DNA of 32,098 nucleotides, from the NCBI GenBank assembly GCA_007694095.1, contig RECI01000222.1, forward strand, positions 1 through 32,098, in the 5' to 3' direction. The DNA comes from Balneolaceae bacterium (GTDB lineage: Bacteria; Bacteroidota; Rhodothermia; Balneolales; Balneolaceae). Position numbers and translations under genes: made by a program. The first letter of the stretch is position 1. Every line of letters starts with the position of its first letter. Positions 2,107-7,299 of this stretch are shown piece after piece. Below the pieces are notes generated by a model, which was not told the DNA's origin, did no database searches, and saw nothing but the letters and a program-made list of their open reading frames with translations.

Positions 2107-3504
2107 TCAGAAGGTAGGATTCAGGCGAAACCAGAATACCGGTGTTGAATCAAATGTTCGCAGCGGCCAGGCAAGTTCAAAACGGACCACACCCGAGCCA
2201 ATTCCTACTCCGGCATCATGCTGCAGGTCTTTGAATGAAAATTGATTTAATCCTTTAAACGGATTTCCCGATCCTGCAAGCTCCTCTATATCACGTACCC
2301 AGCCCGAATCGAGGAAAAACAGCAAATGCAGGTTATAATCCCTGATCCATTCACCCGCCCGACGCGAGGGGCGGCCAAACTGAACCTCAATATTGCTGGC
2401 AAGCATCTGATTTCCTTTAAAAAATTTGAAAGGTGATCCTCTCAGAGTACCGATACCCCCCAGGTAGAAATCTTTAAAATCAGGAGCGTTTCCGGTTATT
2501 CCGCCGGCCTGTACCCTCCATTTCAATACGGATCCCGGTTCAAAGTTGTAATAGACGGTTGCATCGGCACGGTATTTATTGAAACGGTAATCCTCATCAC
2601 TTTGTCCGTTATCAGCCAATTCAGCAACCACATTACCGCTGGCAGTAAAATAATTTGTAATGAGAACCTTTCGCGGATTCAGGGATAAAGAGATACTGTA
2701 AGTGTCGAGCTTTATCTCGTCGGTAAGCTCATCAATTGCAGGGTTTGGCCTGTAAGTAGACGCATAACCAAAAAGCGAATACCTTGTATTCTGGAACACA
2801 GTGCTGTAATTGGTGGCATTGTAGGAGAAACTTGTTTCCAGCCATCGTCGGGTTCTAAAGACAGAATATATGCCAAAACCTTCCATTTTATGGTAATCCA
2901 GGTAATCATATCCTGCGAGAAAAGAGGTTACCGTTGATTCCACCAAACCGACTCGCCGAAAATCTTCGGTGCCTGTTGCATTGTAATATTCGGCCCCAAC
3001 CATAAACCTTCGGTTTGTGCCAATTAATTTTTCAAGGCCAATAGCATATTCCCAGTCTTTCGATGCGGTTCCGTACCCGATAAATCCATGCGGCTGTATC
3101 TGCGGGATATTGAGAAACGAATCATTGCGGTGCCACTGCATTCTCTCTTTTCGAATACTGAAAAACAAGCCGTTCACCCTGTTAAAATGGAACGTTGGGA
3201 GATTGGGGTACTGGCTGTAAAGGGCGCTGCTATAATAGGGCCCGGCTTCAAAGCTGCCGCCCAAATCAAGCCCGGTAATGGATAAACGCCTAACAGCCCG
3301 GTTAAAATCGTCCGGTTCACGATCAATTTCGGCCACTTCGCTGGCATCATCCGGCCCCGATCTGCCAAACAATTCATCAATTGATGTTGTAAATATCGGG
3401 TCTCGCCTGAAGGGATCGTCCGGGTCTGCAGTTTGAGCAAAAAGTTCAGGCCGGATCAGCAAAAATAAAAAAAGGGTAAGTATTGAAATTCTCATCGCAT
3501 CCAT
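2107..3504 (-). CDS. Omp85/BamA-type outer-membrane beta-barrel protein
   Basis: This 465-aa protein starts with a signal peptide (MRISILTLFLFLLIRPELFAQ) and is then rich in alternating aromatic/polar beta strands, ending in Phe as outer-membrane barrels do. The segment FYLGGIGTLRGSPFKFFKGNQMLASNIEVQFG matches the GG-xx-TLRG-Y region (VRGF/Y motif) of the Omp85 C-terminal barrel, and the end ELAWPLRTFDSTPVFWFRLNPTF fits the final barrel strands. There is no room for a full set of POTRA domains: only about 80 acidic residues separate the signal peptide from the barrel. It is therefore not the essential BamA but a small surface-antigen-like relative of unknown cargo. It follows the PP2C phosphatase gene by 58 bp on the same strand and is probably co-transcribed. 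Start could be Met1 or Met4. Confidence 0.78.
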   Translation of the reverse strand: MDAMRISILTLFLFLLIRPELFAQTADPDDPFRRDPIFTTSIDELFGRSGPDDASEVAEIDREPDDFNRAVRRLSITGLDLGGSFEAGPYYSSALYSQYPNLPTFHFNRVNGLFFSIRKERMQWHRNDSFLNIPQIQPHGFIGYGTASKDWEYAIGLEKLIGTNRRFMVGAEYYNATGTEDFRRVGLVESTVTSFLAGYDYLDYHKMEGFGIYSVFRTRRWLETSFSYNATNYSTVFQNTRYSLFGYASTYRPNPAIDELTDEIKLDTYSISLSLNPRKVLITNYFTASGNVVAELADNGQSDEDYRFNKYRADATVYYNFEPGSVLKWRVQAGGITGNAPDFKDFYLGGIGTLRGSPFKFFKGNQMLASNIEVQFGRPSRRAGEWIRDYNLHLLFFLDSGWVRDIEELAGSGNPFKGLNQFSFKDLQHDAGVGIGSGVVRFELAWPLRTFDSTPVFWFRLNPTF

Positions 3505-3562
3505 TTTCCCATCAATACGATATCATTGGCTAAGTGTTACATCAGAAGTATTCAATTTTTAC

Positions 3563-5641
3563 TTATTCCGGAATTTTTATTATAAGCAGGGTAATATCAT
3601 CTTCCGGTTCTTTTCCACCTGTCCATGTTTTTATTATCTGGCTTAAATGCTGGATGATGTCATTGGCCGAGTAACCATCAGAGCTTTTCAGTATGTTTTC
3701 TATTTTACTAATGCCAAGCATTTCCCTGTTGGCATCGAACAATTCCATCAGGCCATCACTCATCATCAGCATCACGTCGCCTTTATCGAGCTGCACTTTT
3801 TTGTTTTTGTATGGAAATTCAACATGGCTTCCAAGGGGCAGCCCTTTCAATGTAATTCGGTCAATTTTTTTCTGATGGCTTCTGTAAATAAGGACAGGAG
3901 GCATTCCGGCAGTTGCTATATCAAAAGTATTGCCGTTACAGCGTACAAGCATCAGCCCCATATACATAAGCTTCATATTCATATTGTGCAGCCCGTTCGA
4001 CATGCGCTTGAGCATTGTAAGGCTGTCTGACTCATGAACCAGGGAGTGAAAATAACTTTTTGCTGCGGCAACCATGATTCCCGCCTTCATTCCATGGCCT
4101 GTTGCGTCGCCAAGAGCTAAAATCAAGCATCCATCTTTTCCTGTACTGTAATCGTAATAATCTCCTCCAACTTCAGTGGCGGTTTCCATAAAAACTGCCA
4201 TATCGTACCCGGGGATGGTAGGCATTTTTTTAGGAAGCATGGACATCTGTAAAGCACGTGCTTCTTCAAGCTCCTTTGTTTTTCGTTCATTTTCTGCCTC
4301 AAGAAGCCGTTTTTCAATTTCACGTTCCTTGCTTATTCTCTCCTGCTGCAATGTTTTTTCTGAAAGCACCTGAACTTCCCTGAGCTTTGATTCAAGGTTT
4401 TTCTGAGTAACGGCAAAATCCCTCGACAGAAAAAGAGACATTGCAAGAATCAGCCCACCCGATCCCGCGATATTTACAAACTGCACATTTCCCTCAATAA
4501 GGTTAATGTTGATTAATACAGTGCTGACAAGAGCTGTCAAAAAAATCAATAAACCTACTCCGAGTACCCATACACCGCTGCGGTTTTTATACAACATCAC
4601 AGCGATGGTTCTGAGTATTTCGAGTATCAGGATAATTACGAAGATTTCCCTTATGAAGTACATACGTTCGGTAAAGTACCAGACCAACACACTTACAACC
4701 AGACCGGCAAGAAGTAATATATCAGTATAGAATGGGGAAAATTTGTGATCTATGCTGTGGGTAAACCGCGCGGCAAAGGTGAGCACAAGCACCTCGGTAA
4801 CCAGTAAATATCGAAAAATATAGAGCGTATCAAATGTGTTTTCCGATAATTCCAACCTGAAGTAGATATAGGATAGTACAGCCAGAAAACCTACAAAAAT
4901 CGAGAAATAGAAATTTCTTCTTTCAGCCGGGTAAAAGACAAAGAGCAGAAAATGAATTATGGCAAATGCCAGCAACATCCCCATATAAAACATATTGCTG
5001 GCAGTCCAGCTTGAGATAAATGCGTATGTGAGGTCCTGGTGGACGTTCCAGTCGCCTAACAGAAAACGGAATCCGTTATAACCCATCAACCTCCCGGTAA
5101 TCACATATTCTGGATTTATGAACCTAACTGCCAGGGTTTGAACTTCACCGTTGGGAAAAACAATCGGAACCGGCTGTCTGCTGTTATAATTTTCAACCTG
5201 GCCGGGGTCTGTGGAAAATTTTCCAAGTTCAATAATTTTTTCACCATTCAGATAAATTTCAGATGCTCCGAGATGGCGGTCTATTAAAAGTGCAATAGGT
5301 TTGCCGGTAAGTTCTTCATCAACTACAAATTCCTTTCTGAACCATCCTATGCCGTTCCAATCAATAAATGCAAGGTCGGCCTGTGTAAGGTTTGTACTTA
5401 TCACCTCCCAGTCAGAATCATCATAATCATGACGGGCTCTTTCCGGATCATCTCCTGCCTGAAATTTCCACCTGTCCTGAATATAGATGATGCTTTCTTC
5501 ATTCAGCATCGCTTCCATGGTGATTTCTTCAATCATTGATTCAGAAAATTGGAAAAAACTTTCCTGCCCATATGCATTTACAGCATACAGCAAAAGCCAT
5601 CCCAAAAGTGAAAATGCAATGCCTGAAGGCCTTGTACACAC
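3563..5641 (-). CDS. Membrane-bound sensor PP2C/SpoIIE-type serine phosphatase
   Basis: This 692-aa protein has clear modules. A signal peptide (1-25) is followed by a jelly-roll domain like the sugar-binding domain of family 2 glycosidases (about 57-180; WKFQAGDD, DYDDSDW, GWFRKEF, ASEIYLNGEKI), facing outside. Next comes a seven-helix 7TMR-DISM-like membrane region (about 212-405), a charged coiled coil (about 410-465) and a C-terminal SpoIIE/PP2C phosphatase (465-692). Metal-binding motifs are present: GGDYYDY (492-498), GDATGHG (511-517), MMSDG (626-630) and EDDITLL (680-686). The family dephosphorylates anti-anti-sigma (STAS) proteins or similar partners, but no STAS or anti-sigma kinase gene is next door. 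It starts 11 bp after the DUF4097 gene and precedes the Omp85-like gene, so an envelope-stress or ligand-sensing role is inferred. The ligand is unknown. Confidence 0.88.
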   Translation of the reverse strand: MCTRPSGIAFSLLGWLLLYAVNAYGQESFFQFSESMIEEITMEAMLNEESIIYIQDRWKFQAGDDPERARHDYDDSDWEVISTNLTQADLAFIDWNGIGWFRKEFVVDEELTGKPIALLIDRHLGASEIYLNGEKIIELGKFSTDPGQVENYNSRQPVPIVFPNGEVQTLAVRFINPEYVITGRLMGYNGFRFLLGDWNVHQDLTYAFISSWTASNMFYMGMLLAFAIIHFLLFVFYPAERRNFYFSIFVGFLAVLSYIYFRLELSENTFDTLYIFRYLLVTEVLVLTFAARFTHSIDHKFSPFYTDILLLAGLVVSVLVWYFTERMYFIREIFVIILILEILRTIAVMLYKNRSGVWVLGVGLLIFLTALVSTVLININLIEGNVQFVNIAGSGGLILAMSLFLSRDFAVTQKNLESKLREVQVLSEKTLQQERISKEREIEKRLLEAENERKTKELEEARALQMSMLPKKMPTIPGYDMAVFMETATEVGGDYYDYSTGKDGCLILALGDATGHGMKAGIMVAAAKSYFHSLVHESDSLTMLKRMSNGLHNMNMKLMYMGLMLVRCNGNTFDIATAGMPPVLIYRSHQKKIDRITLKGLPLGSHVEFPYKNKKVQLDKGDVMLMMSDGLMELFDANREMLGISKIENILKSSDGYSANDIIQHLSQIIKTWTGGKEPEDDITLLIIKIPE

Positions 5642-5652
5642 GATTATTTGAA

Positions 5653-6648
5653 TTAATGTGTTTCCGTAACTGTGATTAATCCCGATACGGTTGTCAATTG
5701 AACCGGAAGCCCGCCTTCTCTTAAGACGAGCTTGCGCTCCCTAAAGGTTTGAGATTGTTCAGAAATTGATCCCTGGCTGATTCCTGCGAGATCAAACCGC
5801 ATTGCCCGTCCCTGTATTTCATATCCGTCAATGGCAGGAATCGTAAGATTGATATCTCCGCTTACAGCTTCCATGTAAATTCCCTGGGATACCTGAAGAA
5901 AATCTGCGGTAATGTTACCGCTTGTAGTTGCAGAAACAAGCGTTCCGTTCATATCGCTGGCAATTATATTGCCCGTTACCGTTCTCACCCTCACCTCACC
6001 GTAATTTGAATCAACATGAATATTACCGTTCACAGTTTTGGCAAATATGTTACCGCTTAATCCTGTTAATTCGATGTTTCCGGTTGTTGAAACTGCCCTT
6101 ATCTCTCCTCGTGCTCCGGTAATGATCAAATCACCGCTTTGGTTTTGCACAAAGTGGCTTCCTTCGGTTCCTTCAAGAGCAATCATGCCATGCACACTCC
6201 TCAGCTCGACAGATGCTTTCGATGGAACCTGCAGCACAAAATGGAATCGTACATCACCCCTCTGCCTCGATGAACCGGGACGGCGGTCTTCAATGGATGC
6301 AATGATCTGGTCGCCCCGCTGAAACATCACAATTCTGTAGTTATCGAGGCTGCGTGTTCCCGACCAGAGTGAAAAAGATCGTTCTACATATAAATCAACC
6401 TGTACACCACCTAAATCGGGATTTTCGATAACTGTAATATCTCCAAATATTGTTTTAACGATAATTTGCGGAGCACCCCTGACCCTGAAAAATTTTGACT
6501 CATAGGGATCATTCTGATTGGTTTCGTCAATAAGTACCGTGTTATGCAGTGAAACTCCCGCGTTTTGAGCCTGAATACCCCTCCCTGCGGTAATAAACAC
6601 GAATATGACCAGGGTAAGCTTAAACATCCATTTATTTCGAATTTTCAT
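5653..6648 (-). CDS. DUF4097-type secreted beta-helix-like protein
   Basis: This 331-aa protein has a signal peptide (WMFKLTLVIFVFITAGRGIQAQ). The rest is a run of short beta repeats such as GDLIITGARGEIRAVSTTGNIELTGLSGNIFAKTVNGNIHVDSNYGEVRVRTVTGNI. This matches the DUF4097/DUF4098 adhesin-like fold, in which each turn has a G-[DN]-I core. Proteins of this type are often next to sigma/anti-sigma or sensor genes, but their function is mostly unknown. It ends 11 bp before the sensor phosphatase, so the two are almost certainly one transcript. It probably sits in the periplasm or on the outer surface and could be a partner of the phosphatase's external domain; this is inference from position. 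A 104-bp gap separates its start from the HD-domain gene upstream. Confidence 0.8.
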   Translation of the reverse strand: MKIRNKWMFKLTLVIFVFITAGRGIQAQNAGVSLHNTVLIDETNQNDPYESKFFRVRGAPQIIVKTIFGDITVIENPDLGGVQVDLYVERSFSLWSGTRSLDNYRIVMFQRGDQIIASIEDRRPGSSRQRGDVRFHFVLQVPSKASVELRSVHGMIALEGTEGSHFVQNQSGDLIITGARGEIRAVSTTGNIELTGLSGNIFAKTVNGNIHVDSNYGEVRVRTVTGNIIASDMNGTLVSATTSGNITADFLQVSQGIYMEAVSGDINLTIPAIDGYEIQGRAMRFDLAGISQGSISEQSQTFRERKLVLREGGLPVQLTTVSGLITVTETH

Positions 6649-6732
6649 AGCTGCTACATTGAACTAAGCCTGCACAATCAACAGTTATTGCTGATTAATG
6701 TACTATTTAATACGCTAACAAGGGAGCTGAGT

Positions 6733-6744
6733 TACAGCGCTGTA
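6733..6744. other. 12-bp perfect palindrome after the HD-domain gene
   Basis: TACAGCGCTGTA is a perfect palindrome lying directly against the stop codon of the HD-domain gene (stop at 6745-6747) and about 85 bp upstream of the DUF4097 start. It is too short with no loop for a good terminator and has no T-tract. It could be an operator for the DUF4097/phosphatase/Omp85 transcript, or chance. Confidence 0.3.
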
Positions 6745-7299
6745 TCAACTATTTTCAAAAATCCCGATCATAAACGCGATGTGGTCGGTAAGTTCCTTTT
6801 CGATCAGTTCTGCTCCTTTTTCGATATCCTCTCTGGGCACATTTGCCGCGAAACGCTTGTCTTTCATTTTTTTCCTCACGGATGATACCTTCATCCCGGA
6901 AAAACCTGTTGGGCGCATCAAGGCAACCGCATTCATGAACCCTGCAAGCTCATCACAGGCAAACAGATACCGCTCTATTTCACTTTCGGGGCTTTTGCCG
7001 GTTCTTTCAGGGGCGTGGGCTTTAATTGCATGCAACACATCAGCAGGATAACCTAAAGGCGGCAAGATATGGTTCACTGCCCGATTGGGGTGCTCATCAG
7101 GAAATTTTTCCCAATCAAGATCATGAAGCAAACCTGCTGTCCACCATTTATCCACTTCAAGGTCTGTCTTATCGAGGCTACCGGCGTATGCTTCCATTGC
7201 TTTTGCAACCATTTTACAATGATCCCTGAGATTTTCCGACTCAATATATTCATCGAGAAGGTTTATCGAAAATTCACGTGAAGGCATGTCAGCAATCAT
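6745..7299 (-). CDS. HD-domain (HDIG-type) putative hydrolase
   Basis: This 184-aa protein has the HD metal-site residues: His27 (RDHCKMVA), the HD pair at His59-Asp60 (AGLLHDLDWEK), His95 (AIKAHAPER) and Asp116 (FACDEL). It resembles the small bacterial HD proteins annotated as HDIG-domain phosphohydrolases; many act on nucleotides or phosphate esters, but this substrate is unknown. There are no membrane segments. Its ATG (7297-7299) overlaps the stop of the TM2 gene as ATGA, implying translational coupling and a shared transcript with the TM2 and DUF2752 genes. Confidence 0.82.
   Translation of the reverse strand: MIADMPSREFSINLLDEYIESENLRDHCKMVAKAMEAYAGSLDKTDLEVDKWWTAGLLHDLDWEKFPDEHPNRAVNHILPPLGYPADVLHAIKAHAPERTGKSPESEIERYLFACDELAGFMNAVALMRPTGFSGMKVSSVRKKMKDKRFAANVPREDIEKGAELIEKELTDHIAFMIGIFENS

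Follow-up and report, generated by a model that had tools for sequence, protein, structure and literature searches.

A conserved gene set of Balneolaceae with a sensor phosphatase, a barrel, and ECF-type promoters is a candidate envelope-stress sensing unit

By computational analysis of a Balneolaceae genome and its relatives, we found that a DUF4097 protein, a seven-transmembrane (7TM) sensor phosphatase, and an Omp85-fold barrel are encoded by a conserved, operon-like gene set (here called the triad). We also found that the triad and a STAS-RsbW-SpoIIE operon located elsewhere carry promoters of a common ECF type, that several targets of these promoters are orthologous between genomes, and that a short motif in the barrel tail is lost where DUF4097 is lost. 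We see about an even chance that the triad is a trans-envelope stress-sensing unit with a phosphatase that targets, in trans, a STAS anti-anti-sigma protein. The protein families are all known; the novelty lies in how they are combined, in the motif of the barrel tail, and in the common promoters of the ECF type.

The three genes form a conserved set

The window, which is the whole stretch of 32,098 nucleotides that was analyzed, contains the triad in the following order of transcription.

5653..6648, minus strand, DUF4097 protein (family F3), 331 aa, PF13349
3563..5641, minus strand, 7TM sensor phosphatase (family F1), 692 aa, PF07228 and PF07695
2107..3504, minus strand, Omp85-fold barrel (family F2), 465 aa, PF01103

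An earlier note on this DNA had placed these genes in one operon, with 11 and 58 bp between them. The coordinates agree exactly: 11 bp (5642-5652) separate DUF4097 from the phosphatase and 58 bp (3505-3562) separate the phosphatase from the barrel, all on the minus strand. A search of both intergenic gaps for terminator-like sites found none.

We searched 78 related genomes, including the source genome, and found the full-length phosphatase (E ≤ 1.2e-132) in 36 of them. This count leaves out distant phosphatases (those of G067, G069, and G071 and the second one of G057) as well as a contig-edge fragment in G018. The barrel was the next gene downstream in 35/36 genomes, the exception being G057, where no barrel was found. 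DUF4097 was the next gene upstream in 34/36; the contig of G024 ends where DUF4097 would lie, and G032 has no DUF4097. In G011, which belongs to the same genus group as the source genome, the phosphatase is 78% identical. The adjacency that the earlier note wanted compared across relatives is thus kept, and the operon-like set is conserved in the Balneolaceae and in three further families of the order. Since the gene order persists in families f3, f4, and f5 as well as in f1 despite differing surroundings, the triad is not simply inherited local synteny.

Outside the Balneolota, we examined 12 phosphatases of the same architecture (L167-L177 and L182, of 46 loci). No barrel or DUF4097 homologue was found in the flanks examined, some of which are short. 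These 12 phosphatases come from Ignavibacteria and Melioribacteraceae bins. Many loci from this search have tandem arrays of several phosphatase paralogues.

The phosphatase is predicted to join a periplasmic jelly roll to a cytoplasmic PPM domain

Two Pfam matches bear out the 7TM phosphatase described earlier, both over the cut-off: SpoIIE (PF07228; 120.4 bits versus a cut-off of 25; E 1.2e-34) and 7TMR-DISM_7TM (PF07695; 32.7 bits versus 29). The protein consists of a signal peptide, a GH2_N-like jelly-roll ectodomain, a 7TMR-DISM 7TM region, a long helix, and a SpoIIE/RsbU PPM domain. The last three parts follow one another in an AF2 model (25-row alignment; mean pLDDT, 84), in which seven TM helices come after the ectodomain and the last one continues unbroken as helix 386-468 before the PPM domain.

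5051..5533, minus strand, phosphatase ectodomain, residues 37-197, beta-rich in the AF2 model and matched to GH2 by phmmer
4238..5050, minus strand, 7TM region and helix 386-468, residues 198-468, from DSSP on the AF2 model and PF07695
3575..4204, minus strand, PPM/SpoIIE phosphatase domain, residues 480-689, from PF07228 and structural matches

The PPM domain is closest to the SiaA PP2C domain (Z 27.2) and the Rv1364c RsbU domain (Z 26.8), and a structural match to RssB takes in the linker helix (model residues 416-690). Residues D494, D512, D629, D681, and D682 are invariant in 25/25 aligned phosphatases. They belong to the motifs GGD, GD, DG, and DD, which we take to be the metal-binding Asp motifs of the PPM family.

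7TMR-DISM receptors reportedly combine a 7TM module with a beta domain outside the cell and a signaling domain in the cytoplasm (Anantharaman and Aravind). The phosphatase shares the 7TM module and the cytoplasmic signaling domain, and its beta-rich ectodomain may correspond to the extracellular one, but the triad adds fixed operon partners, namely, DUF4097 and a POTRA-less Omp85 barrel. It also resembles RsbU and RsbP of the sigma-B response, in which the PPM domain follows a signal-relaying helical linker from an N-terminal sensor (PMC12143880, in the passages available), and all PPM motifs are present in the triad phosphatase. In contrast to RsbU and RsbP, the triad has as its sensor a membrane protein of the 7TMR-DISM type whose jelly roll would lie in the periplasm, the operon contains an outer membrane barrel and DUF4097, and the promoters are of the ECF type and not of the sigma-B type. 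Helical connections of this kind have precedents in available passages of two papers: coiled-coil linkers activate PPM phosphatases (PMC12143880), and a helical link between sensor domains and PP2C has been described in general (PMC1592074).

A glycosidase-type jelly roll and a carbohydrate or similar ligand had been suggested for the ectodomain. The fold is upheld in part: phmmer matched residues 49-136 to solved GH2 N-terminal domains (E 5.9e-7) and residues 37-197 are beta-rich in the model, but the Pfam match to Glyco_hydro_2_N, at 21.9 bits, is below the cut-off of 28. The lack of an ectodomain match in VIA-align carries no meaning, because its rows for the phosphatase mostly cover only residues 464-692. 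The conserved residues of the ectodomain look like the structural core of a GH2-type fold. Because of this and of the subthreshold Pfam score, we assign no ligand, and the carbohydrate ligand is not borne out. A 7TMR-DISM/GGDEF protein that hydrolyzed lactose is described in part of PMC5342196, and it has no bearing on the present ectodomain.

The DUF4097 protein is predicted to be periplasmic

The first gene of the triad encodes a DUF4097/Toastrack protein, as the earlier reading had it, and its Pfam match (PF13349) is over the cut-off (36.6 bits versus 22.9; E 4e-9). From an N-terminal signal peptide, which is our own reading of the sequence, we predict that the protein is periplasmic. For PSP systems, the accessible text of PMC11237479 argues that DUF4097/Toastrack is intracellular. 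The same text ties DUF4097 to envelope stress in Lia/PSP systems; the triad is alike in that PspC is in the same promoter-defined gene set (see below). The triad protein differs in having a signal peptide and in lying beside a PPM phosphatase and not beside PspA or a two-component system.

The source genome has a second DUF4097 gene (L133:5169-6092, contig C169), with an ECF-type promoter-like sequence, TGAAAC-N17-CGTA, upstream.

A motif in the barrel tail tracks DUF4097

The third protein is an Omp85-type barrel, as had been noted earlier. Its Pfam match (PF01103) scores 26.4 bits versus a cut-off of 24, and in Foldseek its model (27-row alignment; mean pLDDT, 79) matches the barrels of BamA, TamA, and Sam50 (E about 1e-9 to 1e-11). 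The N-terminal tail is disordered, with pLDDT below 50 at residues 23-63 and 69-90. We found no POTRA domain in the secondary structure of the model or among the Pfam matches and no STN domain or TonB plug; in Pfam, Omp85 was the sole match up to an E of 0.1. A subgroup of Omp85 proteins that lack an N-terminal extension is known (noNterm), for which PMC4104836, as far as its available text goes, proposes a biogenesis role. The triad barrel shares the absence of POTRA domains, but its disordered tail contains a conserved motif whose presence follows that of DUF4097.

The earlier note suggested that the gene set could be a surface-sensing and secretion module. A carbohydrate-sensing module of this kind would agree with the GH2_N-like ectodomain and the Omp85-type barrel. 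However, the ectodomain score is below the cut-off, the barrel lacks POTRA domains, we recognized no secreted-substrate gene among the conserved neighbors that were scanned, and the promoter-defined regulon described below consists largely of envelope-stress and transport genes and resembles an envelope-stress regulon. We therefore see no support for the secretion idea and consider a carbohydrate-sensing surface and secretion module very improbable.

The motif, DPFxxDP[IFL]F, sits directly after the barrel signal peptide.

3391..3417, minus strand, tail motif DPFRRDPIF (putative docking peptide), the sole match in the source genome

Counted with a slightly looser regular expression, the motif was present in 32/33 barrels with DUF4097 alongside (the remaining one, in G054, has a diverged form) and in 0/8 barrels without DUF4097. 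The barrel of G024, whose DUF4097 would lie beyond the contig end, carries the motif. We scanned 58 genomes at the DNA level and found that 28 have exactly one copy; each copy lies within the barrel gene, and there is none at any other place. Since the motif tracks the presence of DUF4097, it may be a docking peptide. G032, which has kept the phosphatase but has no DUF4097, has a barrel without the motif; this single case points to DUF4097 and not the phosphatase as the partner. On the tree there are three changes for DUF4097, two of them on starred branches, and an independent-pairs test, with G024 coded as DUF4097 present, gave a median p of 0.5 and is unable to reach significance. With so few independent losses, the association is suggestive and not proof.

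DUF4097 and the barrel are preceded by the same type of promoter

Upstream of DUF4097 and of the barrel, we found two sites with the same promoter pattern.

6711..6736, minus strand, P1, ECF-type promoter TGTAAC-N16-CGTA, 62 bp before the DUF4097 ATG
3516..3541, minus strand, P2, ECF-type promoter TGTAAC-N16-CGTA, in the phosphatase-barrel gap, 11 bp before the barrel ATG

The pattern [CT][AG]NAAC-N16/17-CGTA is present upstream of DUF4097 in 35/35 regions, including that of the DUF4097 paralogue of the source genome. The strict form, TGNAAC-N16/17-CGTA, is present in 29/35 (shuffled sequences, mean of 0.055; opposite strand, 0). Its spacing is 16 in 24 regions and 17 in 5, and the remaining spacings between 8 and 26 gave a single match in total. 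This first count is post hoc, because the pattern was derived by reading the same upstream regions; later tests used other spacings and shuffled sequences as controls and turned to P2, to the STAS operon, and to two additional genomes. AAC and CGT are given as hallmarks of ECF promoters in the available part of PMC8103513, and P1 has AAC in the -35 element, CGT in the -10 element, and a fixed spacing of 16-17 (35/35). A scan for sigma-70-type promoters was uninformative (10 sites versus 13.4 expected).

The strict form of P2 was found in 28 of the 42 genomes with a barrel, in each case next to a phosphatase, and CG[CT]AAC variants were found in 3 more. P2 is thus present in 31/35 phosphatase-linked barrels versus 0/7 unlinked barrels. 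The earlier note had set separate transcripts for each gene against the operon. This is half the case here: a promoter-like site of its own precedes the barrel, but P2 is of the same type as P1, so all three genes should still be coregulated.

The barrel occurs without the phosphatase and DUF4097 in 7/42 barrel genomes (G030, G034, G036, G043, G044, G045, and G046) and so presumably has a role without them. In the barrel tree, which has long branches, these seven barrels do not form one clade (AU p 2e-53). Because of this and because the outgroup families have the triad, joint loss of the pair is the simpler reading. The barrel might be an independent envelope-maintenance protein, for assembly or lipid homeostasis, and a merely coregulated neighbor of a DUF4097-phosphatase signaling pair; its retention alone, its own site P2, and the biogenesis role proposed for the noNterm subgroup (in the available text of PMC4104836) all fit. 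However, barrels without the pair have neither the tail motif nor P2 any longer, which indicates that the barrel changes when its neighbors are lost. We consider an independent barrel rather improbable.

The promoter type recurs before envelope-stress genes and a partner switch

In the source genome, the N16 pattern has 19 sites versus 16 for a backward control, which is no clear excess. Likewise, there is no clear excess in G023 (19 versus 18), and in G012 the pattern is below the control (13 versus 27); G012 and G023 together have 32 sites versus 45. However, 13/19 of the source-genome sites lie at most 150 bp before a gene and outside long reading frames, compared with 8.9% of random positions (p 3e-10) in a background of 12 source-genome stretches, unmatched in base composition. 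In G012 and G023, 22 of the 30 sites examined (32 in total) lie before genes by the same test.

The targets in the source genome include the triad (both sites), the STAS-RsbW-SpoIIE operon (contig C53), and genes for a TolC-type protein, PspC, a MacB/FtsX permease, an ABC ATPase, and MarR-type and ArsR-type regulators, the ArsR-type label being our own reading of the sequence. Orthologous targets in G012 and/or G023 are the barrel, DUF4097, STAS, the TolC-type protein, PspC, the MacB-type protein, a 236-aa protein, and a DUF5916 protein. The promoter precedes the STAS-RsbW-SpoIIE operon in 12/21 genomes, about 100 bp from the STAS gene, and CGAAAC variants precede it in 2 more; in 7/21, we found no convincing ECF-type site before the operon, even loosely defined. 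Because the promoter type is common and the targets recur, the triad appears to be part of an envelope-stress regulon that also holds the core partner switch.

Partner-switch genes lie away from the triad

No STAS partner or anti-sigma kinase had been noted next to the triad, and we obtained the same result. The source genome has six STAS matches and three strong RsbW-type matches, and no STAS or HATPase_c_2 match lies on the contig of the window; STAS-RsbW-SpoIIE is on contig C53 instead. In the mapped relatives, we found no STAS or RsbW gene that recurs next to the triad. We followed up the proposal to look for co-occurring STAS or anti-sigma proteins, and phylogenetic profiles singled out no partner, because STAS is nearly universal (the C58 type matches 77/78 genomes), RsbW matches 75/78, and the RsbW type of contig C287 is patchy (15 genomes at E below 1e-20).

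On contig C287 of the source genome, RsbW-type kinase, STAS, and ECF sigma genes lie in a row (L159:153-2065). The locus also has a divergent STAS gene and a Ser/Thr kinase-like gene and is a second, patchy partner-switch locus.

Alternatively, the triad could be output only, that is, a target of a classical response by an ECF sigma factor and a membrane anti-sigma factor. The phosphatase would then serve another pathway, for example, one with a lone STAS protein (contig C116 or C58), and would leave its own sigma factor uncontrolled. The promoters are typical of the ECF type, and ECF factors usually come with their own anti-sigma factor (both in the available text of PMC8103513); lone STAS proteins do exist, and the profiles pinned down no phosphatase partner. 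In contrast, the STAS-RsbW-SpoIIE operon has the same promoter type, as expected of a self-controlling partner switch, and the adjoining RsbW-type, STAS, and ECF sigma genes on C287 make coupling between a partner switch and an ECF factor plausible in this genome. We regard the output-only explanation as unlikely.

A trans-envelope stress sensor is the best reading

Since the triad has its regulation in common with the core partner switch and the envelope-stress genes, we consider an envelope-stress sensor to be the best reading of it. According to this model, the outer membrane barrel and the periplasmic DUF4097 protein would pass on the condition of the envelope to the jelly-roll ectodomain, which belongs to the inner membrane 7TM protein. 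The signal would run along the last TM helix, as a continuous long helix, into the cytoplasmic PPM domain, which would control whether a STAS anti-anti-sigma protein from another locus is dephosphorylated. Dephosphorylated STAS would free a sigma factor from its RsbW-type kinase/anti-sigma factor. Because the triad and the STAS-RsbW-SpoIIE operon use common ECF-type promoters, a positive feedback loop would arise. In this model, we infer what the signal is and which way it runs, that the barrel tail docks, and which kinds of STAS substrate and sigma factor are involved. The full chain would be a new kind of trans-envelope signaling: a docking peptide of the POTRA-less barrel holds a periplasmic Toastrack protein that gates the 7TM PPM phosphatase, and the phosphatase sets the STAS-RsbW switch of an ECF-type regulon that has both sensor and switch among its targets. 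This chain is tentative, and we think it possible but less than likely.

In the FecA-FecR-FecI system, an outer membrane barrel controls an ECF regulon by signaling through its N-terminal extension in the periplasm. The triad is possibly alike in this logic, from a barrel with an N-terminal extension to an ECF regulon. It differs in that the barrel has no TonB plug or STN domain and that the phosphatase and partner switch would replace FecR.

PPM-phosphatase partner switching is best known from Gram-positive bacteria. If the model is true, it links the state of the outer membrane to a sigma factor partner switch in a little-studied phylum and joins PPM-phosphatase partner switching with ECF envelope-stress regulons, which are usually kept apart. 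The analysis supplies testable handles, namely, a peptide and two promoters that are exactly defined and a small number of target genes. Among the literature found that pairs these proteins with the Balneola lineage, the available text gives SpoIIE domain counts in Gracilimonas only (PMC4642740).

Sequences flanking the triad

An HD-domain gene (6745-7299) lies upstream of the triad and is a frequent neighbor in family f1. In this family, a YceG/MltG gene usually follows the barrel; in the source genome and in G011, an M16 peptidase gene (598-1890) is there instead. The interval that separates the barrel from the M16 peptidase gene contains an imperfect palindrome of about 35 bp, at 2042-2079 (within 1930-2106). 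The genome has about 20 other occurrences of it, and the queried stretch has 25 further matches in all. The palindrome looks like a dispersed REP-type repeat.
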